IMG/VR virus record: IMGVR_UViG_3300008110_001359
Coordinates: 1-30,167 of that record
Length of the DNA: 30,167 nt
From: a virus
Direction: 5' to 3' (one strand)
Shown piece after piece: positions 2,208-30,167 of this stretch; the first letter of the stretch is position 1; every line of letters begins with the position of its first letter. The translations under genes were made by a program, and so were the position numbers. The notes beneath the pieces are model-generated. The model did no database searches, was not told where the DNA came from, and saw only the letters and a program-made list of their open reading frames with translations.

Positions 2208-2657
2208 ATGGCTTTAGTTGTTCCAAATATTGGGGAAACCGCGCTACTTAAGAAAATGTTTAATCAAGAGCAGACAACAACTCTGCTTCTTAAGCTGTAT
2301 TACAATGACGCTACACCAAACGCTTTTTCCACCTTATCTTCATTTAGTGAATGTGGGTTTTCTGGGGATCCTCCAACACCAAATGGGTCTTTTCCCGGTT
2401 ATACAAACGCAACCATAACCAACAGCAATTGGGTAGTTGCTACTCCAGTTGGTGCTACCTATGCCGAAGCCGGATATGGAGAACAAACTTTCACTTTTAA
2501 CGCATATACTTCCGCTCAAACAGTTTTTGGATACTATGTGACAGACACTCTCAACAATCTGTTGTGGGCAGAAAGATTTACAAACGCACCATTTACTTTG
2601 CCGCCCGCTGGCGGAACTATAGCAGTCACCCTAACTATTAATTTGGAAAATGTATAA
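2208..2657 (+). CDS. Putative virion structural protein, beta-rich, 149 aa
   Basis: The start at 2208 is fixed by a strong GGAGG at 2199-2203; the frame is open further upstream but only through the divergent promoter region. The protein begins MALVVPNIGE and is rich in Thr, Asn, Gly and aromatic residues with alternating polar and hydrophobic positions, as in beta-sandwich virion proteins. The segments GYYVTDTLNN and LLWAERF match from memory a recurring pattern in small structural proteins of environmental phages (G-Y-x-V, then W-A-E-x-F). It overlaps the next gene by 8 bases. The exact role (capsid decoration, fibre or tail component) cannot be told from sequence. Confidence 0.7.
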   Translation: MALVVPNIGETALLKKMFNQEQTTTLLLKLYYNDATPNAFSTLSSFSECGFSGDPPTPNGSFPGYTNATITNSNWVVATPVGATYAEAGYGEQTFTFNAYTSAQTVFGYYVTDTLNNLLWAERFTNAPFTLPPAGGTIAVTLTINLENV

Positions 2658-4104
2658 GATTATCGTTAATATATGTTTTAAAGAATGGCTGTTAGTTGAA
2701 GATGAAAAATCTCAGCTAGCAGAGTTTAGTGTATTGAAAAACGATTACATAAATCCTTTCATAGACAGGCTCATACAGCATGGAGATACACATCCCGGAT
2801 TTTTGACTCCATCACAAAAAACCGAACTTATGCATCTTAAGACATCTGACGACTTGTTTCACATGATGTCTTCGGCAGATCGGGGTTATTTTGACAAAGC
2901 TGGTGCATTGACAGATAGCGATAAAATTAAAAAACTCATCAACCGCGAAATCGGCAAACTGAATTTTGATGCTGCTGGTAACTTGGGAGATTTAATACAT
3001 CAAGTCAATACTGCTAAAACCTCAAAAAGTCTTCCAGAATACGATCCAGAAAGCGATGCAACTCCTTACAGAAGACATACTGTTGACGACATAAAACAAT
3101 TTTTAGATCACATTTTTAGTAGAAAAGTTATTTACACTACCAAGCGCGCCGAAAAAGATTTCGGGGGAACTGGCGGAGCAAAGGGTGCAACGGAAGATAC
3201 GCCGGGCATCGAGGGATTAGCAAAGGTACAAGCAAAGGATCCAGAAGAGATTCGTGAACTTGGTGCAAACTTAGAGGCAAGGCGAAAGATAGACAAACTT
3301 TCAGATTGTGTCAGACTTATATTTACAAAACAGAATGAAAAATATGCTAGGAAAGCGAAAAACTATGCAAAGCAAGTTGAAAACTCAATAGCTGACCCAG
3401 AGGAAAAATTGTCTGTTTCGCAATTAGTAGATTTGAAATTAGCCAGTTTATTTCAAATTGTTTCAAGATACATGAATGAGCGCGTAACTTCTATAGACGA
3501 AAGAGGATTCCCAACTTCTAGTGATTTATTTGTACAAAAAGATATAGACAATGTTTTACAGGGCAGAGTTAAATTGCTCGATAGAATAGTCAAGAGTGAA
3601 AATTTTATTCCATATTTACGTAAACTCATCAAGGATAACGACCCTGTAGCGGTTGATTTAGAGAAGGCCGTGCTTGGAATTCTATTTGTGGCGGCTGCCA
3701 AAAAAGCTTCGTCAACCTCCGGAAGTATCGCACAAGTTATGCCAGCCTTTATGGGATTGGAAGCAGTAAAATCAAACGCTGCAAATCAAACATTCCTCCA
3801 GAATCTTAAAGAGAAATTCTTAGATGACAAAGTATTAACTGACAAATTTAATTTCAAAAAATTAGATGCTTTAAATGCAGTTTCAGAAGGAAAAGACGGA
3901 GCACTAGATTCTTACATGATTTCTCATACTTTTCCAGACATAAATAAGGGAACTGAAGAAGCAGCTACTTTCTTGAATTTTATGGAAAAAATGAAAAACA
4001 CGAAAGAGCCTTTAATAGGAGCAAGGGGCGAAAGACTGACGTTAGATCTTGAAAAAGATTGTGAAGATGTTGCGCAGATTTTGCAAAAGGCTGGTGTTAT
4101 ATGA
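2650..4104 (+). CDS. Large helical protein with capsid-targeting-like leader
   Basis: 484 residues, start ATG inside the end of the previous gene (8-base overlap), so probably translationally coupled. The N-terminus contains CFKEWLLVE at residues 9-17, followed by an acidic stretch. This resembles the T4 capsid-targeting leader, in which an aromatic/Lys core precedes an L-x-E cleavage site; here L-V-E is at residues 15-17. The rest is predicted helical, charged and without metal or nucleotide motifs; a Gly-rich patch lies near residues 173-180. No family recognised. It may be packaged or part of the prohead core, by analogy with T4 only. Confidence 0.75.
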   Translation: MYKIIVNICFKEWLLVEDEKSQLAEFSVLKNDYINPFIDRLIQHGDTHPGFLTPSQKTELMHLKTSDDLFHMMSSADRGYFDKAGALTDSDKIKKLINREIGKLNFDAAGNLGDLIHQVNTAKTSKSLPEYDPESDATPYRRHTVDDIKQFLDHIFSRKVIYTTKRAEKDFGGTGGAKGATEDTPGIEGLAKVQAKDPEEIRELGANLEARRKIDKLSDCVRLIFTKQNEKYARKAKNYAKQVENSIADPEEKLSVSQLVDLKLASLFQIVSRYMNERVTSIDERGFPTSSDLFVQKDIDNVLQGRVKLLDRIVKSENFIPYLRKLIKDNDPVAVDLEKAVLGILFVAAAKKASSTSGSIAQVMPAFMGLEAVKSNAANQTFLQNLKEKFLDDKVLTDKFNFKKLDALNAVSEGKDGALDSYMISHTFPDINKGTEEAATFLNFMEKMKNTKEPLIGARGERLTLDLEKDCEDVAQILQKAGVI

Positions 4105-4673
4105 CAATTTATAATTGCAACGGTAGGCCATATCGACCTACTGGAAGTCTTCAGCAATTTGGCGATGAATTGCCAGAGCATGCCTTATTCAATCAATGGG
4201 ATGAAGAATCTATAAGACAAGGTGGTTCTCCAATATTTTATTATGAACTTTTCGTAAATATGAACAATATCGATCCCATTTATTTGGAGACGAGAACAAA
4301 AATATACAGTCCGCAACCTGTGCAATTATGGTGTTATTACGAACCAGTTCCAAGTCAAAATTATCAGACTCCTTTTGGAATAGACAGCCCAGATGATATG
4401 TTGTTTGAATTCAATTATCAAACTGTTTTAAAAACTCTTGGACATGTGCCAAAAATAGGAAGTAGATTTTTTACACCATTTTTGAAAGAAAACTGGGTAA
4501 TTATAGAACGAAAGACTGGCGAAATGAAAATGTACGGCGTGGTAAGATTACAATGTTTGTGTCAGAGATTCCAAGAAGATTCTGTTTCTGGCACTTCTGT
4601 TAATGAATCGCAGGGAGTAAATTATAGCTCTGTACTTCAGCCAGTTACACAACCTACATATAAAATAATTTAA
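4101..4673 (+). CDS. Putative neck / head-completion protein (gp14-like, tentative)
   Basis: 190 residues, ATGA overlap with the preceding gene. It starts with a Cys/Arg/Pro-rich segment, then has a beta-rich body with tyrosines and prolines, including WCYYEPVPSQ near residue 75, a DDMLFEFNY segment and IGSRFFTPFLKENWVI. The order 'YY-x-P, short acidic-aromatic segment, glycine, F-x-P-x-L, then W/I-x-x-I-E' is reminiscent of T4 neck protein gp14, which seals the head after packaging and joins the tail. Similarity is weak and read by eye. Its position just before the sheath terminator, sheath and tube genes supports a head-tail interface role, but another tail or head protein is possible. Confidence 0.4.
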   Translation: MTIYNCNGRPYRPTGSLQQFGDELPEHALFNQWDEESIRQGGSPIFYYELFVNMNNIDPIYLETRTKIYSPQPVQLWCYYEPVPSQNYQTPFGIDSPDDMLFEFNYQTVLKTLGHVPKIGSRFFTPFLKENWVIIERKTGEMKMYGVVRLQCLCQRFQEDSVSGTSVNESQGVNYSSVLQPVTQPTYKII

Positions 4674-4683
4674 AGGAGCATTT

Positions 4684-5373
4684 ATGAAAAGTTTTTTTGA
4701 ATTTTACGACAAACTTAAGTCTAAGAGGCTTAATGAGCAGGACGCCATGGTGCCACCAAATATGGGCATGGGACAAGCACCTCCCGGTGGTCAAATGCCT
4801 AGTGCAGGAGGCATGGATAGCATGGGTGCTCCCGGTCAAGTTGCCGGGCAACAAGGAATGAACCTTGACGCACCGCAAGATATGGGTGGTATGGATCAGC
4901 TTGATGCTGACCAAGATGAGGGCAAGGAAGATTCTGACAGCCAAACCGCGCCACCAGAAGGAGAGGCCACAGCAGAATCTTTGTACCCCACGATTGACAC
5001 TCTTATTAAATTCGTCAAGGATTACAGCGTTGGCGATGATGATGACAAAGATCAAAAGCGCGAAGAGCTTTTGTCGCAACTTGATGCGATTAAAAACAAT
5101 ATCGCTGATTTAACAGGAGTCCAGCCTCCATCAGGTCCATCCGACGAAGAGAGTGATGACAGCGTTGGGGCTAATCAGATTGACGCTTCAGCAGATGAAA
5201 TTCCACCGGGAAAGCAAACTGCTTACGGTGGTGAATTCGGTGACCAAGCTGGAGGAGCAAGCATGCCAAATATGGACGGAACAGGAAACATGTACGGCAA
5301 CATGGATGGAGGTTCTAACCCTGCCACTACCGGTGGCGGCGCACTTGGATTTGGCGGCGCATTCGCCGGATAA
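4684..5373 (+). CDS. Gly/Met/Asp-rich protein with capsid-targeting-like leader
   Basis: 229 residues, preceded by AAAGGAG 6 bases before the ATG. The N-terminus MKSFFEFYDKLKSKRLNE closely resembles the T4 internal-protein leader (M-K-x-aromatic-x-x-F ... then L/I-x-E); cleavage would fall after E18. Behind it is a low-complexity segment rich in Met, Gly, Pro, Gln (about residues 20-75), an acidic segment, a short helical domain (about 98-140) and a Gly/Asn/Met-rich tail. Such composition fits a disordered prohead core or internal head protein. A strong terminator follows directly, so it ends the transcription unit. No enzyme motif. Confidence 0.75.
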   Translation: MKSFFEFYDKLKSKRLNEQDAMVPPNMGMGQAPPGGQMPSAGGMDSMGAPGQVAGQQGMNLDAPQDMGGMDQLDADQDEGKEDSDSQTAPPEGEATAESLYPTIDTLIKFVKDYSVGDDDDKDQKREELLSQLDAIKNNIADLTGVQPPSGPSDEESDDSVGANQIDASADEIPPGKQTAYGGEFGDQAGGASMPNMDGTGNMYGNMDGGSNPATTGGGALGFGGAFAG

Positions 5374-5392
5374 TAGATGTATTATTGAATTC

Positions 5393-5420
5393 AAAAGGAG
5401 GATCATTGGATCCTCCTTTT
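5393..5420. terminator. Bidirectional rho-independent terminator
   Basis: AAAAGGAGGATC (5393-5404) and GATCCTCCTTTT (5409-5420) form a perfect 12-bp stem with a 4-base loop; six T follow from 5417 on the plus strand. The opposite strand also ends in a T run, so it can stop both the plus-strand unit ending at 5373 and the convergent minus-strand gene ending at 5421. It is the only clear terminator at a convergent gene pair in this window. Confidence 0.9.
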
Positions 5421-6209
5421 TTATTTAAATAGCTTCAATTTCAACTTTACATAATTTTCAACTTTCATGCTAAGCTTGTTAACTAATAATTTTAATTGCA
5501 CCAGCCCATATAATTGTACATACTTTGATAATTTTTTATATAGATTGTCGAAATAATTATGTTGATTGTCTTTGTAACCTCTGGCTATTATGCTTCTCCT
5601 GTTGGCAAATGTTGCAGCTTGCCATCTTCTATTGTTCTTCAAGTCTGTACTCATTTCCTCTATAGTAATTTTTTCATTTAACACAGGAAATACTTGGCAT
5701 ATCTTATCGCCTTTCTTGAACCGTAGTGCCTGTCCTTCTCTGGGACTATTAAATACTATGAAGAATAAACTGCTCCACCAACTTGTTTCAAGGTGACCTG
5801 AAATTACGCATGCAACATTATCTTCTGAGTAGAATCTAGGATGATTTTCTATTCTCAAAACGTATTTTTCATCGACCATAATATCCAAGCATGTATTCAT
5901 GCTAAAGTGTTTTTCTCCTAAACAACCAACTGGTATACCTATTTTTTGAACTATTTCTGTGTCTTTCTTCCAATTATCTTCTGCAATTATTTGTATTTTA
6001 CCATTCGTTTTACTGACGGTTATTTCTGTATTGAATGGATAACATATTTCTATCCCATAAGTATTTGCATCAACGAATGGTTTGCACATGTAAGGTTGTA
6101 TTTTTTGTTCTTTTCTGTGCTCGGTAGGCGCGCCAGACCAGCCTTCTAATTCCAAATGTATTGGTTTTGGAGCAAATTCATTGTTTAAATGTCTGTATTT
6201 CAAATGCAT
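5421..6209 (-). CDS. DUF6065-like protein (tentative)
   Basis: 262 residues from ATG 6209, chosen because GGAG lies 6 bases upstream (6216-6219); the open frame runs on to 6305 but that part crosses the start of the divergent gp15-like gene. The central region has the features I associate with DUF6065: a Pro-Phe-x-Asp-Ala segment leading to G-I-E-I-C-Y-P-F, a second part with E-N-H-P-R-F, then a Trp-Trp pair with hydrophobic residues (ETSWWSSLFFIVFNSPREG), a basic lysine patch and F-P-V. DUF6065 has no established function that I know. The last 60 residues are basic and aromatic. It is a single minus-strand gene between plus-strand structural units, ending at the shared terminator. Confidence 0.7.
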   Translation of the reverse strand: MHLKYRHLNNEFAPKPIHLELEGWSGAPTEHRKEQKIQPYMCKPFVDANTYGIEICYPFNTEITVSKTNGKIQIIAEDNWKKDTEIVQKIGIPVGCLGEKHFSMNTCLDIMVDEKYVLRIENHPRFYSEDNVACVISGHLETSWWSSLFFIVFNSPREGQALRFKKGDKICQVFPVLNEKITIEEMSTDLKNNRRWQAATFANRRSIIARGYKDNQHNYFDNLYKKLSKYVQLYGLVQLKLLVNKLSMKVENYVKLKLKLFK

Positions 6210-7457: not shown

Positions 7458-9671
7458 ATGGCACTATTACAAAGTTTTCCGCCTTCAAACACAATAAGTC
7501 CTTCGGTCAGATTCACCGAACAAGACTTAACTTTGCTTACAACGACTCCAGCAACCAATGCTATTGGTTTGGTTGGATTTGCTAGTAAGGGCCCCATCAA
7601 TACCCCTACTTTAGTAACGTCAACTTATGAATTACATACTCTGTTTGGCTACCCGCATCCTTCCCAAGGATACGCGCCATACTTGATGTATGCTGCACAA
7701 AATGCTTTGGCTTTCACAAATGCAGTTTGGATTGTGCGTGTAGCAGATACTGATCCCAACTCTTTGTATTACGCAACCACAGCTAGCAAACAAGTACCTG
7801 CTGCAGGCGGTTTGCTTAAAGTCCATGGAGCATTGTTTGACGTAGGCGACACCATTTCTTATCCCGGCGTTGCAGACTATACATATAGCTTCCGTTGGGC
7901 TCTTAACGGAGTACTAAGCAGTAAGGTTGTTAAGTTGCGTACTGATGCTGGAAGACCAGCTCCGTTTACTGGTGTTCCTTACACTGTACCGGAAATTGTT
8001 GATGAGCTAAATCTAAGTCTAAATCCAACGATTGATGGTGTCGAGTTCTTCTTGTATACTGACTCAAGCACAGGTCAGGAAGCAGTTGGGTTCCAGACAG
8101 TTTGGGCCTATGGCGACCAGTCCAGCTTAGAGCTAATCAGCGTACTTGACAATCTTGTTGGATCTACGCCTGCCACTACAGGAACTGCTCCTAATTACAC
8201 TAACGTTAATAACGCTATCGGTTTAGGCAATGATATGACTGTTCCTGTTAAAACAGGCACTGCAACTCACTATCCTGCTTCCGCTTCAGTCGTTACACCC
8301 GGAATTTGGGACTTCCCAGTCGGCACTTACAACTTACAGGTAGTAACTGATGGATCTGGGCTTGTTAGCGTTGACAACGTTATTAGAACTTATGATTTCT
8401 CTACATTATTAAGTGGAGCTTCCTATCCTACTACAGCACTTTTGGTTGCTGATTTGAATACAGCTATCACAACTATCGACCCAACTGTTGCAGGTGTTCC
8501 TCTTGAAGGAGTGCCAGTTTGCTTCCAGTTTGCAGCTAGTTCTGATGCTGTCCAAGTCACAACCAACACCGCTCTAACGGATGGTCAGGGATTGCTATGT
8601 GGTAGAAATGCCAAGATTAATGTTCGCGGCGGTACTCTCGCTGCAATATTCGGATTTAATGCTGCTGGCGTAACTGGACTAACACCTGACGGTGTAGCTG
8701 ACAACGAGGACAGCGATGCTAATGACGGTATGTGGATTGGAACTAACAGCATTCCTGTTACCGATCCAACTTATTACACATTCGAGCTATTTGCTGACAG
8801 CCCGGGCATAGAAGGCAATCAGACCTTTGTTACCTTCAAGAAATATCCTGAAGGCAATACATTCAGCATGGATGTGTTCCTTCTAAATCCCGTAACAAAT
8901 GCAACTCTTCAGGTTGAAGGATGGGGTAATCTTTCTAAGGACCCAGACTCTGCTTTCTATATCCAAACTTACATTAATAGTTTTAGCAACTACATCAGGG
9001 TTCTAGACAATACAGCTACTACTGCACCTCCCGCAGATACTAGCAACCAACAATCTGTCGCACAGAATGATATTCGTTTGAGCGGCGGTTCAGATGGATA
9101 TCCTGTCGGCGAGACTGCTTTGCGTGACGCCTTGTTGATAGGCAGTCCTGTCAATATGAGTGGCGTTTATGCCTTCAGCGACCCAGAGCAGATCAATATC
9201 GACCTTTGTGCTGTTCCCGGTGGTACAACGACCATTGTAATAGATGGACTTATCTCAATGTGCGAAGAGTATCGTCAGGATTGCCTTGCAGTTATCGATC
9301 CGCCAGCCGGATTGACTCCTACCGAAGTAGTTCAATGGCAGAATGGCCAAAGCCCTGTTAACTCTCAGAGATTCAACAGCGATTTTGCCGCTCTCTACTG
9401 GCCTTGGATCATGATCTATGACAGCTACAATAACTTCAATGTTTGGTGTCCTCCTAGCGTTGGCACAGTAGCTGCTATAGTGAATAGCGACAACATTAGC
9501 GCTCCTTGGTTTGCTCCTGCTGGCATTCAAAGAGGTGTTGTGCCTAACGTTATTGACGTTGCATATGTGCCTACTCTCAAAGAGAAGGACAACATGTATG
9601 GCAACCAAAACGCTGTCAACCCGATCGTACGCTATGCTGGACTCTTGACCGCATTAATGTTCGTAGAATGA
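7458..9671 (+). CDS. 18: Tail sheath protein, N-terminal and central parts (gp18-like), frame-broken
   Basis: 737 residues with AGGAG upstream. The sheath protein forms the contractile outer tube. The N-terminus GLVGFASKGPINTPTLVTS and the segment ending WIVRVAD are typical of phage sheath domains, followed by long Thr/Asn/Gly-rich insertions (about residues 95-480). The conserved region before the C-terminal domain is present (YVPTLKEKDNMYGNQ, NAVNPIVRY). After that the frame runs off into about ten unrelated residues and stops at 9669-9671. Sheath proteins normally continue here with about 20 residues containing a W/F-G-x-K-T motif and then L-D-R-I-N-V-R; the latter is present in another frame (9644 on). 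So the segment is missing and the frame has changed. Codon choice looks less AT-rich than in flanking genes, as expected for an abundant protein. Confidence 0.9.
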   Translation: MALLQSFPPSNTISPSVRFTEQDLTLLTTTPATNAIGLVGFASKGPINTPTLVTSTYELHTLFGYPHPSQGYAPYLMYAAQNALAFTNAVWIVRVADTDPNSLYYATTASKQVPAAGGLLKVHGALFDVGDTISYPGVADYTYSFRWALNGVLSSKVVKLRTDAGRPAPFTGVPYTVPEIVDELNLSLNPTIDGVEFFLYTDSSTGQEAVGFQTVWAYGDQSSLELISVLDNLVGSTPATTGTAPNYTNVNNAIGLGNDMTVPVKTGTATHYPASASVVTPGIWDFPVGTYNLQVVTDGSGLVSVDNVIRTYDFSTLLSGASYPTTALLVADLNTAITTIDPTVAGVPLEGVPVCFQFAASSDAVQVTTNTALTDGQGLLCGRNAKINVRGGTLAAIFGFNAAGVTGLTPDGVADNEDSDANDGMWIGTNSIPVTDPTYYTFELFADSPGIEGNQTFVTFKKYPEGNTFSMDVFLLNPVTNATLQVEGWGNLSKDPDSAFYIQTYINSFSNYIRVLDNTATTAPPADTSNQQSVAQNDIRLSGGSDGYPVGETALRDALLIGSPVNMSGVYAFSDPEQINIDLCAVPGGTTTIVIDGLISMCEEYRQDCLAVIDPPAGLTPTEVVQWQNGQSPVNSQRFNSDFAALYWPWIMIYDSYNNFNVWCPPSVGTVAAIVNSDNISAPWFAPAGIQRGVVPNVIDVAYVPTLKEKDNMYGNQNAVNPIVRYAGLLTALMFVE

Positions 9672-9970
9672 TGTTCTATGTCGAGAAGCAGATCAGAAGT
9701 CTATCTCGTCAACTTCTATTCCAGCCTCACACAGACTCGCTTAGAAGGCAATTCATTCTTCTTGCTAATGGCGTGTTGAACAACGTTCAAAACAACCAAG
9801 GCATTACAGCCTACAAGGTGGTTTGCGATGAAAATCTCAATCCTCCCGAGGTAATTGATCGAAACGAGTTAAGAGCGCAAATCGGAATCGTTCCGACTAG
9901 AGCTGTTGAATTCATCTTTATTGAATTCACACTCTACAGAACTGGTGCATTAGATACGGTAACAGCTTAA
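9668..9970 (+). CDS. 18: Tail sheath protein, C-terminal domain in a separate frame
   Basis: 100 residues from the ATG that overlaps the sheath stop as ATGA; homology begins earlier, at 9644, where the same frame encodes LDRINVRRMMFYVEKQIRS, the classic start of the sheath C-terminal domain. Further conserved features are SRQLLFQPHTD, the G-I-T-A-Y-K-V-V-C-D-E segment, NPPEVIDRNEL and VEFIFIEFTLYRTG. In contractile tails this domain carries the C-terminal strand that links neighbouring subunits and lines the tube. There is no Shine-Dalgarno sequence, but the ATGA overlap could allow coupled re-initiation, giving a two-piece sheath. A deletion in this genome or an assembly error is at least as likely. 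Confidence 0.85.
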   Translation: MMFYVEKQIRSLSRQLLFQPHTDSLRRQFILLANGVLNNVQNNQGITAYKVVCDENLNPPEVIDRNELRAQIGIVPTRAVEFIFIEFTLYRTGALDTVTA

Positions 9971-10714: not shown

Positions 10715-11242
10715 ATTTTTAAGAGGCAGTTTCGCTGGCTTTTCAGTATCGAGAATATTGTTGGCAAACCTGAAGCTAACACCGTAAATGTAAAACCTCC
10801 ACTAAAATCACAAAGGCCCAATATTAGCTTCAAAGAAATTCCTCTAGAACATCAAAGCGAAACTATTTACATGCCGGGAAAAGTTGAATGGAAGCCTATA
10901 AATTTAACAGTTTATGATGTTGCAGCTTATTCATTGTTCAATGGTGCCTGCAGGCTAATAGACAATAATGTTTACAGATGGATTAAATTGTTTTATTGGC
11001 CAGAAAATTCTACATACGGGTTCGCCACAAATCAGAACCCCAATACGTCTTTCAAAAGACCAGCTTTCTTGACTATGCTTGATGGTCAAGGTGGAGTATT
11101 AGAGCAATGGCAATTCGACAACGCTTGGTGTCAAGACGTTAATTTTGGCGAACTTGATATGGCAGGATCAGACGTTATGACTATAGACCTTACTTTGAGA
11201 TATGACCGAGCCTATATAATTGGACCGCGCTTGCCTGCTTAA
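10715..11242 (+). CDS. 19: Second tail tube paralogue, no usual start codon
   Basis: The first in-frame ATG is at 10871, but clear tube homology runs further upstream: IFKRQFRWLFSIENIV (from 10715) parallels IFKRKFRWTFEVNQVC of the first tube, RPNISFKEIPLE parallels RPNVSFDETEIN, and the ATG at 10871 sits inside the conserved IYMPGKVEW. The C-terminal part (LEQWQFDNAWCQDVNFGELD, then DLTLRYDRA) also matches. The protein is about 175 residues from 10715. GGAGG at 10710-10714 lies directly against the homologous region with no ATG, GTG or TTG in frame between the upstream stop (10664) and 10871. Either the first codons are lost in this sequence, or a rare start such as ATT is used. Many large phages carry more than one tube-like protein, so a real second tube component is plausible. 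Confidence 0.75.
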   Translation: MFKRQFRWLFSIENIVGKPEANTVNVKPPLKSQRPNISFKEIPLEHQSETIYMPGKVEWKPINLTVYDVAAYSLFNGACRLIDNNVYRWIKLFYWPENSTYGFATNQNPNTSFKRPAFLTMLDGQGGVLEQWQFDNAWCQDVNFGELDMAGSDVMTIDLTLRYDRAYIIGPRLPA

Positions 11243-11496: not shown

Positions 11497-12018
11497 CTAA
11501 TGGTTTTTCTTTTTCTCTTTTTTTCTACCAGACATAACTGGATTACCATTCTTTATAGCAAATATTTTACTATATTTCTTTTTAAGCTCGTTATAGTTCT
11601 TAGCTGTGCGCCATAGTTGCCTAAAGTGATTTAGTATGCAGGTTGTCATATAGTTAAAAGCTTTACCCTTACTTGGGTCAAATTTTTCTACTCTTTCAAA
11701 GCAGATAAGAACACCCTCTTGTATGGCGTCGTCCTCATCTATGTTACTAAACTTAGCATATCTTACTATATTTTTAGACAAAGTATAGAAAGCGTCTGCA
11801 AGTATTTTTTGTGCAGAAGTAAGGTCATCACTTGCTCGCACAATTTCTATATTGTCAAGGGCCAGAGGCACCATGACACTATTTTTTACTTGAAAGATAG
11901 ACCTTTGAAAATTAAGATCTTCTAAAAGAATTTGAAATTTATTTTGTTGTTTTTTGGCTGTTTGGAATCTTATAATAATAGATTCAAAACTTTTATTATT
12001 TAAATATTCGGATGACAT
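11497..12018 (-). CDS. 55: Late-transcription sigma factor, gp55-like
   Basis: 173 residues, close to T4 gp55 (185). gp55 is a minimal sigma factor that directs host RNA polymerase to late promoters with a TATAAATA box. The core sigma region 2 is visible at about residues 70-145: ILADAFYTLSKNIVRYAKF, then DEDDAIQEGVLICFERVEKF, DPSKGKAFNYMTTCILNHF and a basic RQLWRTAKNY, the order seen in sigma-70 region 2 and gp55. There is no region 4, as in gp55. The C-terminus is a lysine-rich tail, which in T4 carries the clamp-binding site; no hydrophobic clamp motif is obvious here. It is divergent from the TPR gene, 30 bases away. Confidence 0.8.
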   Translation of the reverse strand: MSSEYLNNKSFESIIIRFQTAKKQQNKFQILLEDLNFQRSIFQVKNSVMVPLALDNIEIVRASDDLTSAQKILADAFYTLSKNIVRYAKFSNIDEDDAIQEGVLICFERVEKFDPSKGKAFNYMTTCILNHFRQLWRTAKNYNELKKKYSKIFAIKNGNPVMSGRKKEKKKNH

Positions 12019-20306: not shown

Positions 20307-20843
20307 TTAGGATGCTGGTCTTGCTTGGTCTGTTGGGCCGCCCAGAGGCGGTATGGTGCTTAAATCGGTTGTTCCAGTTGTCATGGCAGTTTGATTATCA
20401 AAGTTGTTTCCTCCAACCTTGCTCATATCGTTTTGGTCCGATCCAAGCTCTTCGGAGCCCTTGTCCATAACTGCTAAATTATTGATTGGACCTTTAATCT
20501 TGTTTAGAATGTTTTGATTAATTAAGTCCAAGCAGCCCTTAATTATTGCTGCAATATCTTGGTTTTGTGTATCTTTGTCGCCATCAGCTAAAAGTTTCAT
20601 GTTGTAAGCTACAGTTTGTAATGGAACTAAAAATACTTGTTGCTGTTTTAACCAGTGTCCATGAATCATAGTTTGAACTAAAGAGAAAATGTCTTCGCAG
20701 TCTCCTTTTAATTCTACTAAACCTGTAGATGCCAAGTTTAACATAGACTGCAATCGTTCTGCAACTTCCGAAGCAGCTTTCTTAAGTACACGATTATCCT
20801 CTAGTAGGACAAATCTTTTAAATGATATTGTTTCTTCGAACAT
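20307..20843 (-). CDS. Helical protein with capsid-targeting-like leader
   Basis: 178 residues. N-terminus MFEETISFKRFVLLEDNRV contains an aromatic/Lys core (SFKRF) and L-L-E at residues 13-15, resembling the leader cut from T4 internal head proteins. Residues about 20-125 are helical; the rest is a polar, disordered tail rich in Asn, Thr, Gly, Asp and Pro. No family recognised. GATAAATA lies 4 bases before the ATG and there is no Shine-Dalgarno sequence. Probably a late, packaged or core protein, by analogy. It is the first gene of the operon with the glutamine amidotransferase and nuclease. Confidence 0.7.
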   Translation of the reverse strand: MFEETISFKRFVLLEDNRVLKKAASEVAERLQSMLNLASTGLVELKGDCEDIFSLVQTMIHGHWLKQQQVFLVPLQTVAYNMKLLADGDKDTQNQDIAAIIKGCLDLINQNILNKIKGPINNLAVMDKGSEELGSDQNDMSKVGGNNFDNQTAMTTGTTDLSTIPPLGGPTDQARPAS

Positions 20844-20847
20844 ACTT

Positions 20848-20855
20848 TATTTATC
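20848..20855 (-). promoter_or_regulatory. Late-promoter-like box (GATAAATA, 4 nt before ATG)
   Basis: GATAAATA on the minus strand, followed by AAGT and the ATG at 20843. It differs from the T4 late box TATAAATA at the first base. A second related stretch, AATAAATATATCTG, lies about 15 bases further upstream (around 20860-20873), so either could be used. No Shine-Dalgarno sequence is present. Confidence 0.55.
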
Positions 20856-23970: not shown

Positions 23971-25953
23971 TTAAACCAATATACTTGTTCCATTTTTCAT
24001 TTGTAAATTTAGTTCCTGACAACCGTTAAGCAATTCTAAAAGATCGTGGTCGTGTGTGGTCACAACTACCTGTTTTTCTTTGGCTAATTCACAAATCATG
24101 TTGTAAATTCCTTCAACACCGACTGGGTCTATGTTGGTTGTTACCTCGTCAAGAAATACTAAACTCGGCATTCTTCCTGTATTCAAAGTCATTACATGAG
24201 CAAAAGCTTGTGAAAGGGCCAGATTTATTCTCCGCCTTTGACCATTGCTCATGATGTGATAAATCAACGGCTTTCTGTCGGGGAATTTTAAAATTGTTTC
24301 CGACAGTTCATTGTCAAAATTTATTTCTATTTTTGAATCAATCAAAAACTGAAGCCAATAGTTTACGTTGGCATTAAGCGCGGGAATTACTTCATCAATT
24401 ATGTACTTCCTAATTCCAGAATCGCCGAAGGCTATAGTCCAAAATGCGTAATACTCTGACTGAGTTTTTAAATCATTAATTATTACTTGTTTTGCTGATA
24501 AAGAACTATTTTCCTGTGTAATTTTTGCGTGTGTATCTTCGATCAGAGATGTGTATGGACAACCATTTTCCAAGTCTGTTAATGCTTTTTTGCTCGTTTC
24601 TTTGATGATACGAATCTTTTCTTCCACACCGGCTTTTTTGACAGTGTTGTCAGGTATTTGTATTTTATTGAGAACGCTTATCTTATCCAGCGTGTCTTTC
24701 TGTTTCTTTTCAATAGCTTTTACTTGTTTTAACTTTTCTGCCAAAACTTCCTGCAATGCCTTCTCTTTTGTTTCAAATTGAGTTTTTTGATTATCGTAAT
24801 CCTTGCATTTAGCATCTGCTTCAGAGTACTTGACTTTTATATCTTTCAATAGTGATTCGTGTTCTTGCTTTATTGTTGCATAATTATCGGGATTTATGGG
24901 CGCAAAGCAATGCTGGCAGTTAACGCCGGGTTCTAACTTGTCAATTTTTGACAAGACTTCATTTATTTTTTTGCCTTCTGCCACATAATTTTGTTTAACA
25001 ATAACAAATTCATGTTTTTCTTCAAGCAATTTGGTTTTGCTTGAACTAACAGCTTGCAAATCTTTTTCGCAAGATTTTTTATCTTCTTGCAATTTTGCTA
25101 ATTCGGATTTGTATGTTTCAAGGTCAGAAGTAGCTTCTGAGAGCTGCTTTTGCGCCTCTTCAAATTTCTGCACATCCTCAGATAAATTTAAAGATTCAAG
25201 CTCTTTTTCTGCGGAATCTAATTGAGACGCAAGGCTTTTAATTTCGGTTATTTTGGTGCTTTTCCAGAGCTTCAATTTTTCCTTGTAAAGATGCTCTGTT
25301 TGTTCAAGATTTTTTATGTTGCTTTCAATATGTGAGAGTTCCAACTCGGCAGTTTTAATAGACGATGCGTGATCTTTAGCAAGGCTTTTTGCCGTCTCAT
25401 GGTATCCGCGATACTTTTCTAAACTCAAAAGATTTTCGACTATGCTTCTTTTTTCGGCTGCATCGCATTCCAAAAAAGAATTGCTGTTATCGTCCGTAAA
25501 CACAAATATGTTTGTGAAAGTTTGGTAGTTTAGCCCAAGAGTGTCTTCAATTAATTTTTGAGTTGCAGGCATCCCGCCCAGTGTAAGTTCGTTATCATTC
25601 TTCCAAAAACGCAAGCTGTCAGGCTTTCGCTTTCTTTCTACCTTATAGTCATCCCAGCACACTTCTACACTTAAGCCTTTAGTGCAGTTTATGTGCATTA
25701 TATCTTTGTGACTTATTTTTTTAGGACTTTTGATAGTCTTTCCAAACAATCCATATACTATTATTTCTGGTATGCTGCTTTTGCCAGATCCGTTCGATGA
25801 TAGACGTTCTTCTTCGCCCTTTTTAAGGCTATCTAAATTAACTCCCTTTACCAGAATTATGTTTCCATAATTGGCAAAGTTGAGTTCTATTCCGTCGTCG
25901 CCAAAACACAAAAAATTCTTGGCGGCGATTCTTTTAAAATTAATCTTTTGCAT
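23971..25953 (-). CDS. 46: Recombination endonuclease subunit, gp46-like (SbcC/Rad50 family)
   Basis: 660 residues, the ATPase of the gp46/gp47 complex that resects DNA ends for recombination-dependent replication. N-terminal N-F-L-C-F-G and Walker A (SSNGSGKSS, about 52-60) are followed by a long heptad-type coiled coil (about 190-520) broken by a CxxC zinc hook, C346-Q-H-C349. The C-terminal half holds the ABC signature MSNGQRRRINLALS (about 567-580) and Walker B SLVFLDE (D602, E603), then TTHDHD. It overlaps the gp47 C-terminal fragment by 14 bases, the usual 47-46 operon order. An insertion after the P-loop region (about 40-52) is longer than in T4. Confidence 0.92.
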   Translation of the reverse strand: MQKINFKRIAAKNFLCFGDDGIELNFANYGNIILVKGVNLDSLKKGEEERLSSNGSGKSSIPEIIVYGLFGKTIKSPKKISHKDIMHINCTKGLSVEVCWDDYKVERKRKPDSLRFWKNDNELTLGGMPATQKLIEDTLGLNYQTFTNIFVFTDDNSNSFLECDAAEKRSIVENLLSLEKYRGYHETAKSLAKDHASSIKTAELELSHIESNIKNLEQTEHLYKEKLKLWKSTKITEIKSLASQLDSAEKELESLNLSEDVQKFEEAQKQLSEATSDLETYKSELAKLQEDKKSCEKDLQAVSSSKTKLLEEKHEFVIVKQNYVAEGKKINEVLSKIDKLEPGVNCQHCFAPINPDNYATIKQEHESLLKDIKVKYSEADAKCKDYDNQKTQFETKEKALQEVLAEKLKQVKAIEKKQKDTLDKISVLNKIQIPDNTVKKAGVEEKIRIIKETSKKALTDLENGCPYTSLIEDTHAKITQENSSLSAKQVIINDLKTQSEYYAFWTIAFGDSGIRKYIIDEVIPALNANVNYWLQFLIDSKIEINFDNELSETILKFPDRKPLIYHIMSNGQRRRINLALSQAFAHVMTLNTGRMPSLVFLDEVTTNIDPVGVEGIYNMICELAKEKQVVVTTHDHDLLELLNGCQELNLQMKNGTSILV

Positions 25954-26344
25954 CTTCTGCAGCCTTGACTATCTTGTTGCCAATTTCAATAAGAATCTTC
26001 TTATCCAATGCCAAGTTTTGCACTTGTTCTACATAACGTTCAAGTAATTTGTCTTGGTTGGCGATCAAGTCTTTCGCGTCTGCCAGAGCATGTTCGTCCT
26101 GCTTTTTTATCTGTTTTTTGACTTGGACAGTAGAAGCTTTTAATTCCTCTACAACCTTTGCCATGTTTTTCTTATTGCTGTTTGCATCATTGCTTTCGCT
26201 TATTATGCAAACAAACCCATCTTTAATTTCATTTGCATTGTAATTCTCTATTTCACTTTCCTGTATGTAAAAATGCTTTGGGCTGAAAGTATTCTCGATA
26301 TACGATAAAGAATCATTCGACGCATCCAATAAGATCACAGCCAA
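25940..26344 (-). CDS. 47: gp47-like C-terminal fragment in a separate frame
   Basis: Up to 134 residues; the only possible early starts are TTG (26344), GTG (26338) or TTG (26329), none with a convincing ribosome site. The N-terminal part VILLDASNDSLSYIENTFSP, followed by KHFYIQESEIENYN, matches what in phage gp47 proteins follows the G-H-x-H metal motif (strand, then I-x-N-T-F-S-P-x-H-F). The rest is a helical region that in gp47 binds gp46. The frame differs from that of the upstream fragment, and the segment in between is absent. It overlaps the gp46 start by 14 bases, as an intact gp47 should. Confidence 0.75.
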   Translation of the reverse strand: MAVILLDASNDSLSYIENTFSPKHFYIQESEIENYNANEIKDGFVCIISESNDANSNKKNMAKVVEELKASTVQVKKQIKKQDEHALADAKDLIANQDKLLERYVEQVQNLALDKKILIEIGNKIVKAAEDAKD

Positions 26345-26882
26345 CTACAGTCATATCTCCATCATGCTCTATTATTACATCTGCTACTGAACCAGCTGAG
26401 TTTAACCTTGCTCCATCGATGGCCAAGTGCCCCAAAAGATAAGAATTTTCTACTTTGTCTTTTAAATTTTCAAGCTCCGTTAAAGGTTCATGTGTGTACG
26501 GAATGAAATGCCAGTTCGTTCCATGTATATCAATTTCACAGGTTTTGTCTATGACAGTTACATTTTTGATTGCTTTAAATGGTCTTACGCTACTAACACT
26601 CCAACTTGAAGCATACCATAAATCATGATTTCCCAATAATAAATATGTTTGAAAACTTTCGTTTTGGTATTTTTCAAATACATTGAAAACCAAATTGTAA
26701 GTCAAACTGTCAATTTTTTGTCTGTCGTGGAGGAGATCTCCTCCAAAAAGTACTGCATCAACCTTTTTACTTTTAGCAGTTTCAAATACCCATTCCAAGG
26801 CCGCAATACAATGCTGCAACCTCTCCTGACTTTTTTTATGTGGATGTACGTGAAGATCACTGAAAAGCAGAAAGGTAGCCAT
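26313..26882 (-). CDS. 47: Recombination endonuclease subunit gp47-like, N-terminal part (SbcD/Mre11 family)
   Basis: 189 residues, about half the T4 length (339). Phosphoesterase motifs in order: S-D-L-H-V-H (D9, H11), GGDLLHDR, LLGNHDLW and LLGHLAIDGARLNSAG, followed by DVIIEHDGDMTVVG. After that the frame gives GCDLIGCVE and stops. The final conserved metal-binding motif, G-H-x-H, and the following I-G-S-P segment, normally 35-40 residues further on, are absent from all frames here, whereas the part that comes after them appears in another frame (26344-25940). As read, the nuclease should be inactive. Possible explanations are a real deletion or an assembly error. The start at 26882 has no Shine-Dalgarno sequence. 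Confidence 0.85.
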   Translation of the reverse strand: MATFLLFSDLHVHPHKKSQERLQHCIAALEWVFETAKSKKVDAVLFGGDLLHDRQKIDSLTYNLVFNVFEKYQNESFQTYLLLGNHDLWYASSWSVSSVRPFKAIKNVTVIDKTCEIDIHGTNWHFIPYTHEPLTELENLKDKVENSYLLGHLAIDGARLNSAGSVADVIIEHDGDMTVVGCDLIGCVE

Positions 26883-26918: not shown

Positions 26919-27275
26919 TTAAGACTTTTTTTCTTGCTTTTTCAAGCATTTGTCCAGCGCGTTCCAAACATCTGTATTTTTCAAATCAATATCAGTAGGT
27001 GCTGCTGGTGCTCCTCCCAATCCGCCTCCAAGACCAGACATGTCTGGTCCTCCTAAAGGTGGCGCTGCTCCTCCTCCTAATCCACCAGCTGGAGGTGTGG
27101 CTCCCAAACCGGGATCTCCTCCTATGCCCCCTGCAGGCAACGGTGGCGCTCCACCCATGCCTCCTCCAATATCTCCTCCTGTCGGTGGAGCACTTCCAGC
27201 ACCAGCTGCTCCTCCAACAGGTGCTGCGTCGGCTTCATTAAGCATATTTTTTACGAAATTTCTGAAGGTTATCAT
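26919..27275 (-). CDS. Gly/Ala/Pro-rich low-complexity protein with capsid-targeting-like leader
   Basis: 118 residues. The N-terminus MITFRNFVKNMLNEADAAP fits the T4 capsid-targeting pattern best of all in this window: aromatic-x-x-F core, then L-N-E at 12-14 followed by Ala, the residue type preferred after the gp21 cut. Residues about 20-90 are repeats of short Gly-Gly, Pro-Pro, Ala-Pro and Gly-Leu units; the C-terminus is a charged helix. GATAAATA lies 5 bases before the ATG, with no Shine-Dalgarno sequence. The opposite strand also has an open frame through the repeats, but this strand has the leader and promoter. Likely a disordered internal or core head protein. Confidence 0.7.
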   Translation of the reverse strand: MITFRNFVKNMLNEADAAPVGGAAGAGSAPPTGGDIGGGMGGAPPLPAGGIGGDPGLGATPPAGGLGGGAAPPLGGPDMSGLGGGLGGAPAAPTDIDLKNTDVWNALDKCLKKQEKKS

Positions 27276-27280
27276 TACAT

Positions 27281-27288
27281 TATTTATC
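27281..27288 (-). promoter_or_regulatory. Late-promoter-like box (GATAAATA, 5 nt before ATG)
   Basis: GATAAATA on the minus strand, 5-base spacer ATGTA, then the ATG at 27275. It mirrors the plus-strand box at 27296-27303, with 7 bases between them: a back-to-back pair inside a 33-base intergenic gap. Confidence 0.6.
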
Positions 27289-27295
27289 CATGATT

Positions 27296-27303
27296 AATAA
27301 ATA
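27296..27303 (+). promoter_or_regulatory. Late-promoter-like box (AATAAATA, 5 nt before ATG)
   Basis: AATAAATA, 5-base spacer ATTTT, then the ATG at 27309. In T4 the late box occupies about -13 to -6, so the transcript would begin at the A of the ATG. Confidence 0.6.
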
Positions 27304-27308
27304 ATTTT

Positions 27309-27764
27309 ATGAAGAGCTTTAGAACATGGTTAGAAGATGTCGCGCCATCAGCGATGGATGAACCTACTGTTGCTGGTATTCCAGATGAAACTCCAGCTGC
27401 TAGTCCTGCCGACACAAAAATGACTACAAAACAATATCTTGAAAAATATAAACTTAAACCGTGGAAAGCTTCCAAAGAACAAATACTTTCTTTTTGGAAA
27501 ACCGTTGCACCTAATTCTCCTTTAGCTTTAAAACCAATTGCTTATGATCATGAAGGTTCGTCAATTCAGGAAGATACTGTCAGAATTACTGGTAGCAAGG
27601 AATTCATTTCAAGTGTTTTAAGTCGTCTGAAAGACTTTCTTAATTACGAAAATGACAAAACTAAGGTTATGGTGGCTTACAGACAAAGCCCAAGAAGCTT
27701 TTTACCCGGCAATAAAAATTCTTATATTTTCTATTTGCAGGTCATGGAAAGAGGCAAGGATTGA
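27309..27764 (+). CDS. Protein with short capsid-targeting-like leader, 151 aa
   Basis: Starts MKSFRTWLEDVAPSAMDEP: the K-S-F-x-x-W core matches the leader family, although the L-E-D sequence does not exactly fit L-x-E. Residues about 18-36 are Pro/Ala-rich; the remaining 115 residues look like a folded alpha/beta domain (helix SKEQILSFWKTV, strand-rich middle with EDTVRITGS, helix FISSVLSRLKDFLNY, final strands). No family recognised. First gene after a late-promoter-like box, no Shine-Dalgarno sequence. Overlaps the convergent minus-strand gene by 34 bases. Confidence 0.7.
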   Translation: MKSFRTWLEDVAPSAMDEPTVAGIPDETPAASPADTKMTTKQYLEKYKLKPWKASKEQILSFWKTVAPNSPLALKPIAYDHEGSSIQEDTVRITGSKEFISSVLSRLKDFLNYENDKTKVMVAYRQSPRSFLPGNKNSYIFYLQVMERGKD

Positions 27765-27916
27765 TATACTTCGTGATATTCTGTTAATTCTTCTGTTCTT
27801 TTAATTTGATTGTCGATTTTATCCGCGAGGTCCTGTTGTTTTTGCGTCATGTTTATGAATTTGCTATCAATTTTTTCCACAAGGGCTTTAATTACCGCAA
27901 CGTCGTCTAGTATCAT
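27731..27916 (-). CDS. Small coiled-coil protein, 61 aa
   Basis: 61 residues, almost all helical and charged, with heptad-like spacing of hydrophobic residues (ILDDVAVIKALVEKIDSKF, then QQDLADKIDNQIKR). GGAGG lies about 10 bases before the ATG. No known family. The 3' end overlaps the convergent gene by 34 bases. It might be a small regulator or assembly factor; nothing decides it. Confidence 0.55.
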   Translation of the reverse strand: MILDDVAVIKALVEKIDSKFINMTQKQQDLADKIDNQIKRTEELTEYHEVYQSLPLSMTCK

Positions 27917-28039
27917 AATGGGACGGACCTCCGTTTTATGGACATAGTATTAATGCTGAAGAATGACTTTTACAAGTACATTTGTGTGGAAAAATTTCTG
28001 CGGAAACCCTAAAATTAAATTATAGACAGAGGTGCAAAG

Positions 28040-29452
28040 ATGGCAAAAATTTTACTTAAAAACGACATAAGCCAAATCACAACAAAGAATGAACCTTTGT
28101 CTAAATTTCTTTACGAGAATCTCAGATTCCGCGATAGAAATTATTTCCACAATAGAGCTTACAGGCAAAGAATTTGGGACGGTTACACGAATTTCTTTAA
28201 TAAAAATAACGGTAAATTCCTAACTGGATTGCTCCCAGAAATTTTGATGGCTTGCAAAGCCATGAATGAGCCAGTTGAATTTATTGACCAAAGAACAAAT
28301 GTTGAATTTTCTGTAAAAGAAATAACCTCATCCTTTTTGCATTCCTGTACACCAAAAGGTTCTACACCAATAACTTTGGAAGACTATCAGGTAGACTTGG
28401 TAAATACCGCAATCAAGAATAAAAGAGGTGTTATATTTGCGCCAACCAGCGCTGGCAAGTCGTTGACAATGCTATCCATACTTAAATGCCTACCGTCTGG
28501 CACTAAAACTCTTGTATTGCAAAACAGAAAAACTCTAGCAATTCAAAACTACGAAGAATATACTAAATGGGGCCTCCATAATGTAGGACGCATTTGGGGT
28601 GGGGTTGATGAGCCCAGTGATATTACTGTGTCTACTGTTCAGTCTATTTCAAAGGCGGAAGATCTTTTGCCGCAAGTGGAAGTACTTTTAGTTGATGAAA
28701 TACATGATATGATGAGCGCGGCTCCCAAAGCTGTTTACAGAATGCTAAAAAAATGCAGTGTTAGAATTGCAGTTTCTGCTACTCCTTTCAAATTTGGAGA
28801 AAGCGACAAAATACAAAAATTTTATGTTAAAGGATTCTTTGGCCCTCCCTTCAAAATTAAATCAACAGAAACAGGAGTTGTTACAACCAAAGAATTACAA
28901 GAGCGCGGAAGACTATCCAAAAGCAAATGTAAATTCTTCAAAATAACATCTCCAGATTTAGAATATGAGCTTTACCAAGACGCTGTAAATTTGGGCATTG
29001 TCGAAAATGCCGAACTTCACGAGAAGGTTGTTAATTTAGCAAACTCACAGTCAGGCAGAACTTTAATTTTGGTCGATAGATTAGCCCATGGCGATACATT
29101 GCAGTCTCTAATACCCAACGCTCTATGGGTTCAGGGTAAGGATAATGATGAAACAAGAAAGCAAGTTATAGAACAATTGCAAAAATCTGAGAATTGTATA
29201 GCCATTGCTACACAAGGTATTTTCAATACTGGAATTAACGTATTTGTGCATACTTTGATTAATGCTGCCGGTGGGCAAGCAGACCATCAAATAATACAGA
29301 GAATGGGTCGCGGTCTTAGAACAGCCAAAGATAAAGAAGAATTACTTTACATTGATTTTATATTTGAAACAAACCCTTACCTACACAGACATAGCCTAAA
29401 ACGGGTCAAAATTTTGCAAAAACAGGGACACGATGTAGAAATTCTGGACTAA
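28040..29452 (+). CDS. uvsW: UvsW-like superfamily 2 DNA helicase
   Basis: 470 residues (T4 UvsW: 503); GAGG lies before the ATG. UvsW unwinds branched DNA and R-loops and helps switch T4 from origin- to recombination-dependent replication. Helicase motifs in order: Q-type region LEDYQVDLVNTAI, motif I APTSAGKS (134-141), motif Ia TLVLQNRKTL, motif II LLVDEIHDM (about 217-225, a D-E-x-H box), motif III SATPFKF, motif V GIFNTGINVFVHTLINA and motif VI QRMGRGLRTA. The N-terminal about 110 residues correspond to the UvsW DNA-binding domain position (RQRIWDGYTNFFNK fits). It overlaps the convergent minus-strand gene by 4 bases. Preceded by the only long divergent gap in the window. Confidence 0.88.
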   Translation: MAKILLKNDISQITTKNEPLSKFLYENLRFRDRNYFHNRAYRQRIWDGYTNFFNKNNGKFLTGLLPEILMACKAMNEPVEFIDQRTNVEFSVKEITSSFLHSCTPKGSTPITLEDYQVDLVNTAIKNKRGVIFAPTSAGKSLTMLSILKCLPSGTKTLVLQNRKTLAIQNYEEYTKWGLHNVGRIWGGVDEPSDITVSTVQSISKAEDLLPQVEVLLVDEIHDMMSAAPKAVYRMLKKCSVRIAVSATPFKFGESDKIQKFYVKGFFGPPFKIKSTETGVVTTKELQERGRLSKSKCKFFKITSPDLEYELYQDAVNLGIVENAELHEKVVNLANSQSGRTLILVDRLAHGDTLQSLIPNALWVQGKDNDETRKQVIEQLQKSENCIAIATQGIFNTGINVFVHTLINAAGGQADHQIIQRMGRGLRTAKDKEELLYIDFIFETNPYLHRHSLKRVKILQKQGHDVEILD

Positions 29453-29793
29453 GTTCCGGCTGTCATGATGTCAACGATATCACCTATGGTGCCATCTATT
29501 TCATCAACATTATCTAATTGTTTTCTTTTTGGATCGTCAGGCGGTAATTGTTTATAGAATTGAAGATTTTTAATTGTGTTTTTTACTCCCATTTGAGTGG
29601 AAGTTCCTTTGGGACCCGGCACTTCTTGCGTTTTAAGGTTTCGCAAAGGCTGTTTTCTCAGCTCTCCATTACTTCCAATTCCGCCTAAATCAAATGCGCT
29701 TCTTAAAATGTCAAGATAATTAGTTTCTTGGTTCTGAATTGTTTCATTCAAAACTGTTAAATACCATGACTTAAATTCTAGCTTTATTTCCAT
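29449..29793 (-). CDS. Protein with capsid-targeting-like leader, 114 aa
   Basis: N-terminus MEIKLEFKSWYLTVLNET has the F-K-S-W core and L-N-E at 15-17. The rest is helical then polar with Gly/Pro-rich stretches (PGPKGTSTQMGV) and an acidic C-terminal part. No family recognised. It has an exact TATAAATA box 5 bases before the ATG and no Shine-Dalgarno sequence, so late, leaderless expression is predicted. Likely a packaged or core protein by analogy with T4 internal proteins. Confidence 0.7.
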   Translation of the reverse strand: MEIKLEFKSWYLTVLNETIQNQETNYLDILRSAFDLGGIGSNGELRKQPLRNLKTQEVPGPKGTSTQMGVKNTIKNLQFYKQLPPDDPKRKQLDNVDEIDGTIGDIVDIMTAGT

Positions 29794-29798
29794 AGATA

Positions 29799-29806
29799 TA
29801 TTTATA
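29799..29806 (-). promoter_or_regulatory. Late-promoter box, exact TATAAATA, 5 nt before ATG
   Basis: TATAAATA on the minus strand, spacer TATCT, then ATG 29793. It is identical to the T4 late promoter consensus recognised by gp55; with T4 geometry the first transcribed base is the A of the ATG. Confidence 0.65.
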
Positions 29807-29826
29807 GAGGCTTAAGGTATTTTTTG

Positions 29827-30167
29827 ATGCAGCATAAATTATTATTTAAAGAGTGGATTGGCAAGAGTCCTGAAGTTATGTACGGATTTAGGCCAGACGT
29901 AAGCAAAATTGAGATTCCATTCTATGAATTGGAGCCAATAGAAGCCTTTAGTGTTGAGAAATGTTTAGAAGCTTTGGCCGCGACTGGTAAAATAGACGGA
30001 AAAGAAGCAAATGACATTTGGAAAACTCAGCTTTCATACGGACATGGATTGGGAAAAGTTAGTGTTACAAGTTCTCCTTATGGATCCTATAAATTTGTAG
30101 TAAGAAGATATGTAACTGATGCTAAAGGTAATTTGGTGCCAATATGCAGGCTTGTAATACCACTAAC
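29827..30167 (+). CDS. Unrecognised protein with FKEW leader, 3' end outside window
   Basis: Starts MQHKLLFKEWIGKSPEVMYG and stays open to the end of the window (113 codons seen). TAAGG lies 9 bases before the ATG. The FKEW core is shared with the gene at 2650, but no L-x-E follows closely (only S-P-E at 14-16). The visible part is alpha/beta: a helix near SVEKCLEALAATGKIDG, then a two-strand segment YKFVVRRYVTDAKGNLVPI. No family recognised. Divergent from the gene at 29793, 33 bases away. Confidence 0.7.
   Translation, partial: MQHKLLFKEWIGKSPEVMYGFRPDVSKIEIPFYELEPIEAFSVEKCLEALAATGKIDGKEANDIWKTQLSYGHGLGKVSVTSSPYGSYKFVVRRYVTDAKGNLVPICRLVIPL

Follow-up and report, generated by a model that had tools for sequence, protein, structure and literature searches.

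Predicted T4-type capsid-targeting leaders on unrelated proteins of an uncultured virus and its larger relatives

Seven proteins encoded by the uncultured virus fragment IMGVR_UViG_3300008110_001359 (30,167 bases, the whole stretch analysed here and in the following called the window) share a short N-terminal leader, in which an F-x-x-[FWY] core is mostly followed by a Glu. These seven leaders are confirmed as real and exceed chance, and as far as this can be read from sequence it is very likely that they are capsid-targeting sequences of the T4 type. A preliminary description of the window, made from its letters alone, had already interpreted them in this way. This is now supported by a profile built without T4 that retrieves the T4 internal proteins IPI, IPIII, and IPII, by the match of the conserved positions with residues 4 and 7 and the Glu of the T4 sequence, and by genes for a prohead protease and a capsid protein of the T4 type in larger relatives.

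The leaders and their conservation

All seven N-termini lie where they had been described (Table 1; genes are named here by their start positions), and L-x-E at residues 12-18, claimed for five of them, was borne out, the exceptions being 27309 and 29824. The leader of the latter can be read from two start codons, TTG at 29824 and then ATG at 29827. The bodies had been called unrelated, and at E 1e-3 the seven proteins indeed fall into seven clusters, with 29824 represented by its copy on G001, a 91-kb contig that is near-identical to the window. PHROGs and Pfam scans of the seven window proteins gave no match better than E 0.08. Furthermore, a gene truncated by the left edge of the window, which begins MSSKQKMIEIYESFATKLSSKVVNE in its complete G001 copy, may be an eighth and weaker case, which we left uncounted.

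Two tests place the window leaders above chance. The regular expression [FY]x.[WFY]...[LIMVF]xE, applied to the first 34 amino acids, matches six of the 41 open reading frames (ORFs) of the window, compared with 0.99 expected from internal windows or 0.90 from shuffled N-termini. When each leader was scored by a matrix derived from the other six families (29824 as the intact G001 copy), the empirical p values were 0.0004-0.0019 (3.8e-4 for 2650), except for the weakest leader, 4684, with p 0.031, and Fisher's combination gave about 1e-13.

Relatives of the window, designated by G numbers, range from G003 and G004 (sheath about 77% identical) and G005 (gp46 44% identical) to larger ones reached via a UvsW profile, including G015 (223 kb) and G017 (511 kb). 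Moreover, the 595-kb uncultured phage LR756511 has a capsid protein that is 80% identical to that of G015. Most syntenic orthologues retain the leader while the body diverges. The regular expression is matched by all members of the 4684 cluster (9/9) and the 20843 cluster (14/14) and by 12 of the 16 in the 27309 cluster; the remaining four and the gene at the 2650 place in G009 are the exceptions. At this place, beside the 4101 gene, G004, G005, G006, G007, and G012 have a gene with leader and G009 has one without; no gene of the 2650 kind was seen there in G015, G017, and LR756511, and G010 ends there. An alignment of 11 sequences of the 20843 family, nine of them 17-27% and one 86% identical to the window protein, has as invariant columns only F8, F11, and E15, all within the leader, and L123. 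Judged from this alignment, the leader of this family outlasts its body. In the 29824 family (eight sequences) the invariant columns include F8 and W11 but not the Glu; G015 and G017 have L-S-E and M-Q-E, and the G-F just after the Glu position is invariant in a seven-row alignment. The 29793 orthologue of G003/G004 has a leader that is four residues shorter and still ends L-Q-E.

The 27275 family (12 sequences) has M1, F4, and P19 invariant, and the remainder is mostly rich in Pro and Gly. For this protein (26919-27275) place and composition are conserved, but little of the sequence. The gene adjoins gp47 or lies one ORF away in 13 of the 15 records shown with a gp47 match; it is not beside gp47 in T4 or HTVC008M, and the G007 copy is obtained only from a later in-frame Met. 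Structure prediction gave a helical bundle with a disordered tail for the 20843 family (mean predicted local distance difference test, pLDDT, 69) and a folded alpha/beta domain with a low-confidence leader for 29824 (mean pLDDT 77). The predicted fold of 29824 had no match in the PDB at E <=0.001, and three matches just under 0.001 in a viral library, with template modelling scores of at most 0.25, are not convincing. Searching the 20843 protein by tblastn against a phage collection yielded no match at E 0.1. Seven further proteins of relatives, either tagged or leader-like, were scanned against PHROGs together with T4 gp67 and gp61.1, and for these seven there were only two weak matches (E 0.0032 and 0.00082), to families without assigned function.

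The profile search for the leader, which the preliminary description had proposed, extends the finding beyond the window. A score matrix was built from 40 leaders of the window's closer lineages, without T4, and tested on G013-G018, which contributed none; G015 had been viewed with the regular expression before, so that it was unused for training but not unseen. At a core score of at least 8 there are 31 of 630 N-termini, compared with an expectation of 4.1 based on internal windows of these proteins. [LI]xE follows the core in 19 of these 31 compared with 90 of 553 low-scoring N-termini (p 7e-8). Leu directly after the core is favoured by the matrix itself, and equal-scoring internal sites of the same proteins were therefore used as an extra control, of which only 5 of 45 carry the motif (p 5e-6). 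By regular expression the excess is small in G013 (2/45), G014 (3/49), and G016 (2/53). Among the 1019 ORFs of LR756511, 48 reach a core score of at least 8 (5.9 expected) and 44 a combined score of at least 10 (4.9 expected). Across 128 scored proteins the core aromatic is commonest at residue 4 (48); in the 20843 and 29824 families, with their invariant aromatics at 8 and 11, the leader begins a few residues further on. Two other T4-type phages, the Flavobacterium phage immuto (1/217; 0.99 expected) and HTVC008M (1/180; 1.33 expected), have no excess, which shows that the null is calibrated and that a tag set of this kind is not universal among T4-type phages.

The link to T4 is given by the same T4-free matrix, which ranks gp61.1 first, IPI second, IPIII fourth, and IPII fifth among 267 T4 ORFs. 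The capsid-targeting sequence is described as having been defined on IPIII, with an identical sequence in IPII and a similar one in IPI; targeting depends mainly on residues 4 and 7 and processing on residues 8 and 10, and gp21 cuts after L/I-x-E (PMC9026906). The conserved F-x-x-[FWY] of the leaders coincides with the targeting residues 4 and 7 and the Glu with a processing residue (PMC9026906). T4 gp61.1 itself (NC_000866 18966-19130, 54 amino acids, hypothetical) has the best-scoring T4 leader, MKTFKEFIKE, and can be predicted from this to be a further tagged, internal head protein.

Prohead protease, cut sites and alternative readings

The preliminary description had also pointed to the prohead protease, its own sites and those of the capsid protein as a means to examine the leaders. 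This comparison held in G015, G017, and LR756511, where the predicted sites resemble the leader ends; on G001, which is itself a fragment, neither gene was found. Peptidase_S77 is present in G015 (E 4.8e-27) and G017 (E 1.4e-25) among 14 larger relatives searched, together with full-length Gp23 (E 2.3e-88 and 4.8e-87, respectively), and Gp23 fragments occur in G016 and G018; LR756511 also encodes a T4-type protease and a full-length capsid protein. The protease of the relatives retains H85 and S140 of T4, which we take to be catalytic, and an E-S near its N-terminus is invariant, with LN before it in G015 and G017 (LNES) and LK in LR756511. In a five-way capsid alignment including T4 the Glu at gp23 residue 65 is invariant, in the context MNE in G015 and LNE in G017, and by eye FNE in LR756511. 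The gp23 propeptide is given as 65 residues (PMC9026906). The gene between portal and protease, with other genes around, starts similarly to the leaders, KLISFDAFKKIEE in G015 (from a later in-frame Met), KLVSFDVFETIEK in G017, and KLINYDVFQKISE in LR756511 (score 6.1, under the tag threshold). A second Peptidase_S77-like gene of LR756511 (locus L133, 242621-242989, E 3.5e-9) is located distant from the head module.

Several findings weigh against the assignment to capsid targeting. Two of the seven window leaders, 27309 and 29824, lack L-x-E. In T4 the third-ranked ORF is uncharacterised, IPII and IPIII score 6.8 and thus stay under the threshold of 8, and there is no overall excess at this score (2/251; 1.6 expected). 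G013 and G014 are close relatives with many common genes, so that the 630 N-termini are not all independent, and a 415-amino-acid metallopeptidase-like protein of G005 is one likely false positive. The yield among the 14 further relatives was low, with the protease in two and the capsid protein in four including two fragments, and a protease and capsid search in G001 and three related fragments gave no match, but the controls matched nothing either, so that this does not demonstrate absence. In the LR756511 set, about one member in nine can be expected to be a chance hit. There, [LI]xE follows the core in 15 of 48 compared with 155 of 915 low-scoring N-termini (p 0.018), a weak link, and compared with 8 of 40 internal sites the difference is not significant (p 0.17); recognition of the tag in LR756511 thus rests on the aromatics. 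Because of the equal-score internal-site control, our confidence in capsid targeting is slightly lower.

By analogy with T4 we infer packaging, core binding, cutting, and injection of the tagged proteins. The F-x-x-[FWY] segment, with its first aromatic mostly at residue 4, would bind the prohead core and thereby carry each tagged protein into the head during assembly. A gp21-type prohead protease would then cut after the Glu a few residues on, commonly in a predicted L-x-E or L-N-E. After cutting, the mature proteins would remain in the head beside the DNA and would be injected at infection or kept as core parts. The tag would be portable, as it appears fused to unrelated bodies in the window and to dozens of proteins, including enzymes, in larger relatives.

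It is possible, but rather unlikely, that the leader docks on the prohead core and stays uncut in some members, which would then be permanent core or head parts and not injected cargo. The two window leaders without L-x-E fit such a role, as do the 29824 family, in which the aromatics and the subsequent G-F are invariant but not the Glu, the low-complexity bodies of 4684 and 27275, and the weak cut motif in LR756511; L-x-E in the other five window leaders and the L-S-E and M-Q-E of the 29824 family in G015 and G017 speak for cutting. That the leader is a docking peptide for tail, baseplate, membrane or replication compartment, merely resembling the T4 tag, is improbable. The tagged window genes do sit among tail and replication genes and the head module is absent from the window, but the profile retrieves T4 internal head proteins, core and cut motif go together in G013-G018, and a protein of the head region, encoded between portal and protease, has a leader-like start. 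Finally, chance or a composition bias of AT-rich N-termini, to which a short and degenerate motif and the low significance of 4684 taken alone could point, is hardly credible in view of the excess in the window, G013-G018, and LR756511, the conservation of the 20843 family, and the lack of an excess in immuto and HTVC008M.

Cargo in the larger relatives and late promoters

If the leaders are capsid-targeting sequences, the tag offers a way to predict from sequence which uncharacterised phage proteins have been loaded into the head beforehand, and dozens of hypothetical proteins of huge phages become testable candidates for injected effectors. The 44 tagged LR756511 proteins have 44 different bodies by clustering. 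Pfam was run on 20 hand-picked leader-like bodies (13 from LR756511, five from G015, one each from G009 and G017), not all of them above the score threshold. Ten match at E <=0.01, seven of these passing the curated cut-off and three staying below, and ten have no match at E 0.01. Over the cut-off are a C39-like peptidase (E 5e-14), a poly(A) polymerase/tRNA nucleotidyltransferase (E 1e-25), HAD_SAK_1 in LR756511 (E 1.6e-15), a tRNA-ligase phosphodiesterase domain (E 8e-9), DUF5661 (E 5e-11), a KOW domain (E 9e-7), and an FSH1-type hydrolase in G009 (E 8e-7). The HAD_SAK_1 protein of LR756511 has a leader of 17 residues ahead of the domain and its homologues in LR756504, LR756502, and LR745206 begin at the domain without leader (no complete ORF was called in LR745208), as would be expected of a detachable tag. 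In LR745206 the nucleotidyltransferase begins MILKKYKMFLESRES, a start that is leader-like too (score 8.1). G017 encodes two similar proteins in tandem at 153771-156607 (477 and 468 amino acids), both with leader-like starts, and a tagged LR756511 protein of 949 amino acids has, by eye, a stretch after the leader in common with this pair.

It has already been suggested that such tags serve to bring a variety of proteins into heads (PMC9026906). What appears to be new is how large the predicted tag set of a huge relative is and that it contains enzymes, plus a rule to find it; the open-access literature searched yielded no description of an expanded set of T4-type tags in huge phages. Tentatively, with the chances slightly short of even, we propose that huge T4-related phages use a general head-loading system for tens of swappably tagged cargo proteins, which would reach the host ready-made along with the DNA. 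A C39-like cysteine peptidase and RNA-repair-type enzymes would belong to the cargo of LR756511, and in the window's lineage the tag would often be joined with a late promoter, placed near enough to the start to give a leaderless mRNA, to form a promoter-plus-tag cassette. If this is true, the RNA-repair-type cargo of LR756511 (tRNA nucleotidyltransferase, tRNA-ligase-type phosphodiesterase, HAD_SAK) could undo tRNA-cutting defences at once.

An association of the leader genes with ATAAATA boxes had also been claimed and was reproduced: a box lies at most 45 nucleotides (nt) upstream of 4/6 scored leader genes and of 0/34 others (p 1.6e-4). Among the 660 genes of ten contigs, one of which is the window, 22 have a box at spacing 3-7, 17 of them among the 68 leader genes, compared with an average of 3.2 and a maximum of 10 in mononucleotide shuffles. 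Genes with a close box mostly lack an AGGA-like ribosome site (present in 1/23 versus 207/684). The box is commoner before leader genes (p <0.05) in eight of the 12 contigs between G000 and G012 that were tested, with several near-duplicates among them, and in LR756511 (8/44 versus 22/972, p <0.05); the association stays above p 0.05 in G005, G006, G007, and G011 and does not hold in G015 (1/13 versus 5/285) and G017 (0/9 versus 5/125). In T4, none of the boxes within 40 nt is nearer than 12 nt to a start, and spacing 3-7 occurs in 0/250 genes. If the box is a late promoter with what is presumably the T4-type geometry, transcription would start at or near the ATG, which suggests leaderless late mRNAs. 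HTVC008M, which is without the tag set, has close boxes in 9/179 genes (0.95 expected; immuto four, 2.8 expected), and therefore the box is probably more widespread as a feature of late genes, and in the window's lineage it mostly precedes tagged genes.

The window carries further T4-type genes, encoding a tail sheath stabiliser, a sheath, a baseplate protein, a ribonucleotide reductase, a gp46/gp47-like pair, and a UvsW-like helicase, where the names gp46, gp47, and UvsW are our assumption from domains and gene order. Its sigma factor is a candidate late sigma factor for the ATAAATA boxes, presumably in a gp55-like role. A Sigma-70 scan and a search with phrog_22 were uninformative. The frames of the sheath (7458-9970), the gp47-like protein (25940-26882), and a second tail-tube-like protein (10871-11242) are shorter or split in the window and longer on G001, probably due to sequence or assembly errors.

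Table 1. Coordinates of predicted leaders, ATAAATA boxes and the sigma factor gene in the window.
Feature	Position	Strand	Sequence and remarks
Leader, 484-aa (amino acid) protein (2650-4104)	2650..2700	+	MYKIIVNICFKEWLLVE, core CFKEW; predicted cut after LVE
Leader, 229-aa low-complexity protein (4684-5373)	4684..4737	+	MKSFFEFYDKLKSKRLNE; predicted cut after LNE
Leader, 178-aa helical protein (20307-20843)	20799..20843	-	MFEETISFKRFVLLE, SFKRFVLLE; predicted cut after LLE
Leader, 118-aa Pro/Gly-rich protein (26919-27275)	27234..27275	-	MITFRNFVKNMLNE; predicted cut after LNE
Leader, 151-aa protein (27309-27764)	27309..27335	+	MKSFRTWLE(D); no L-x-E, possible cut W-L-E
Leader, 114-aa protein (29449-29793)	29743..29793	-	MEIKLEFKSWYLTVLNE, LEFKSWYLTVLNE; predicted cut after LNE
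Leader, protein running past the window end (272 aa on G001)	29824..29874	+	MMQHKLLFKEWIGKSPE, LLFKEWIGKSPE; no L-x-E
ATAAATA box	20848..20854	-	4 nt before 20843 gene start
ATAAATA box	27281..27287	-	5 nt before 27275 gene start
ATAAATA box	27297..27303	+	5 nt before 27309 gene start; faces 27281 box
ATAAATA box	29799..29805	-	inside TATAAATA; 5 nt before 29793 gene start
Sigma factor (Sigma70 region 2)	11497..12018	-	Pfam PF04542, E 3.2e-7

Comparison with known systems

N-terminal signals for loading the head are known from other phages. SPN3US and related giant phages have N-terminal propeptides on inner head and ejection proteins, which are likewise cut by a gp21-related protease. However, several of these propeptides are described as longer than 100 residues and one alone as near 20 (PMC5694885), whereas the leaders here have 9-18. 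DarB of P1 also has an N-terminal signal, which is reported as enough to load a reporter into the head, but it comprises more than nine residues within the first 30, and the Dar proteins are described as having no consensus (PMC9024508). Closest are the T4 internal proteins, whose preloaded set is described as including IPI, which acts against restriction, and IPIII, which is required for infection of strain ECOR17 (PMC9391042). IPI, IPII, and IPIII share with the proteins described here an N-terminal sequence of about 10-20 residues with aromatics at 4 and 7 and a Glu cut site, predicted in the present case, on unrelated bodies. A T4-type protease and capsid protein are encoded here in the larger relatives. 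The T4 core is Y-Q-E-F, whereas it is mostly F-x-x-[WF] here, with a variable spacer to the Glu. Unlike the T4 internal proteins, seven tags are found in 30 kb here and dozens in LR756511, where some bodies are enzymes, and the tagged genes here, in contrast to T4, often have an ATAAATA box 4-6 nt from the start.

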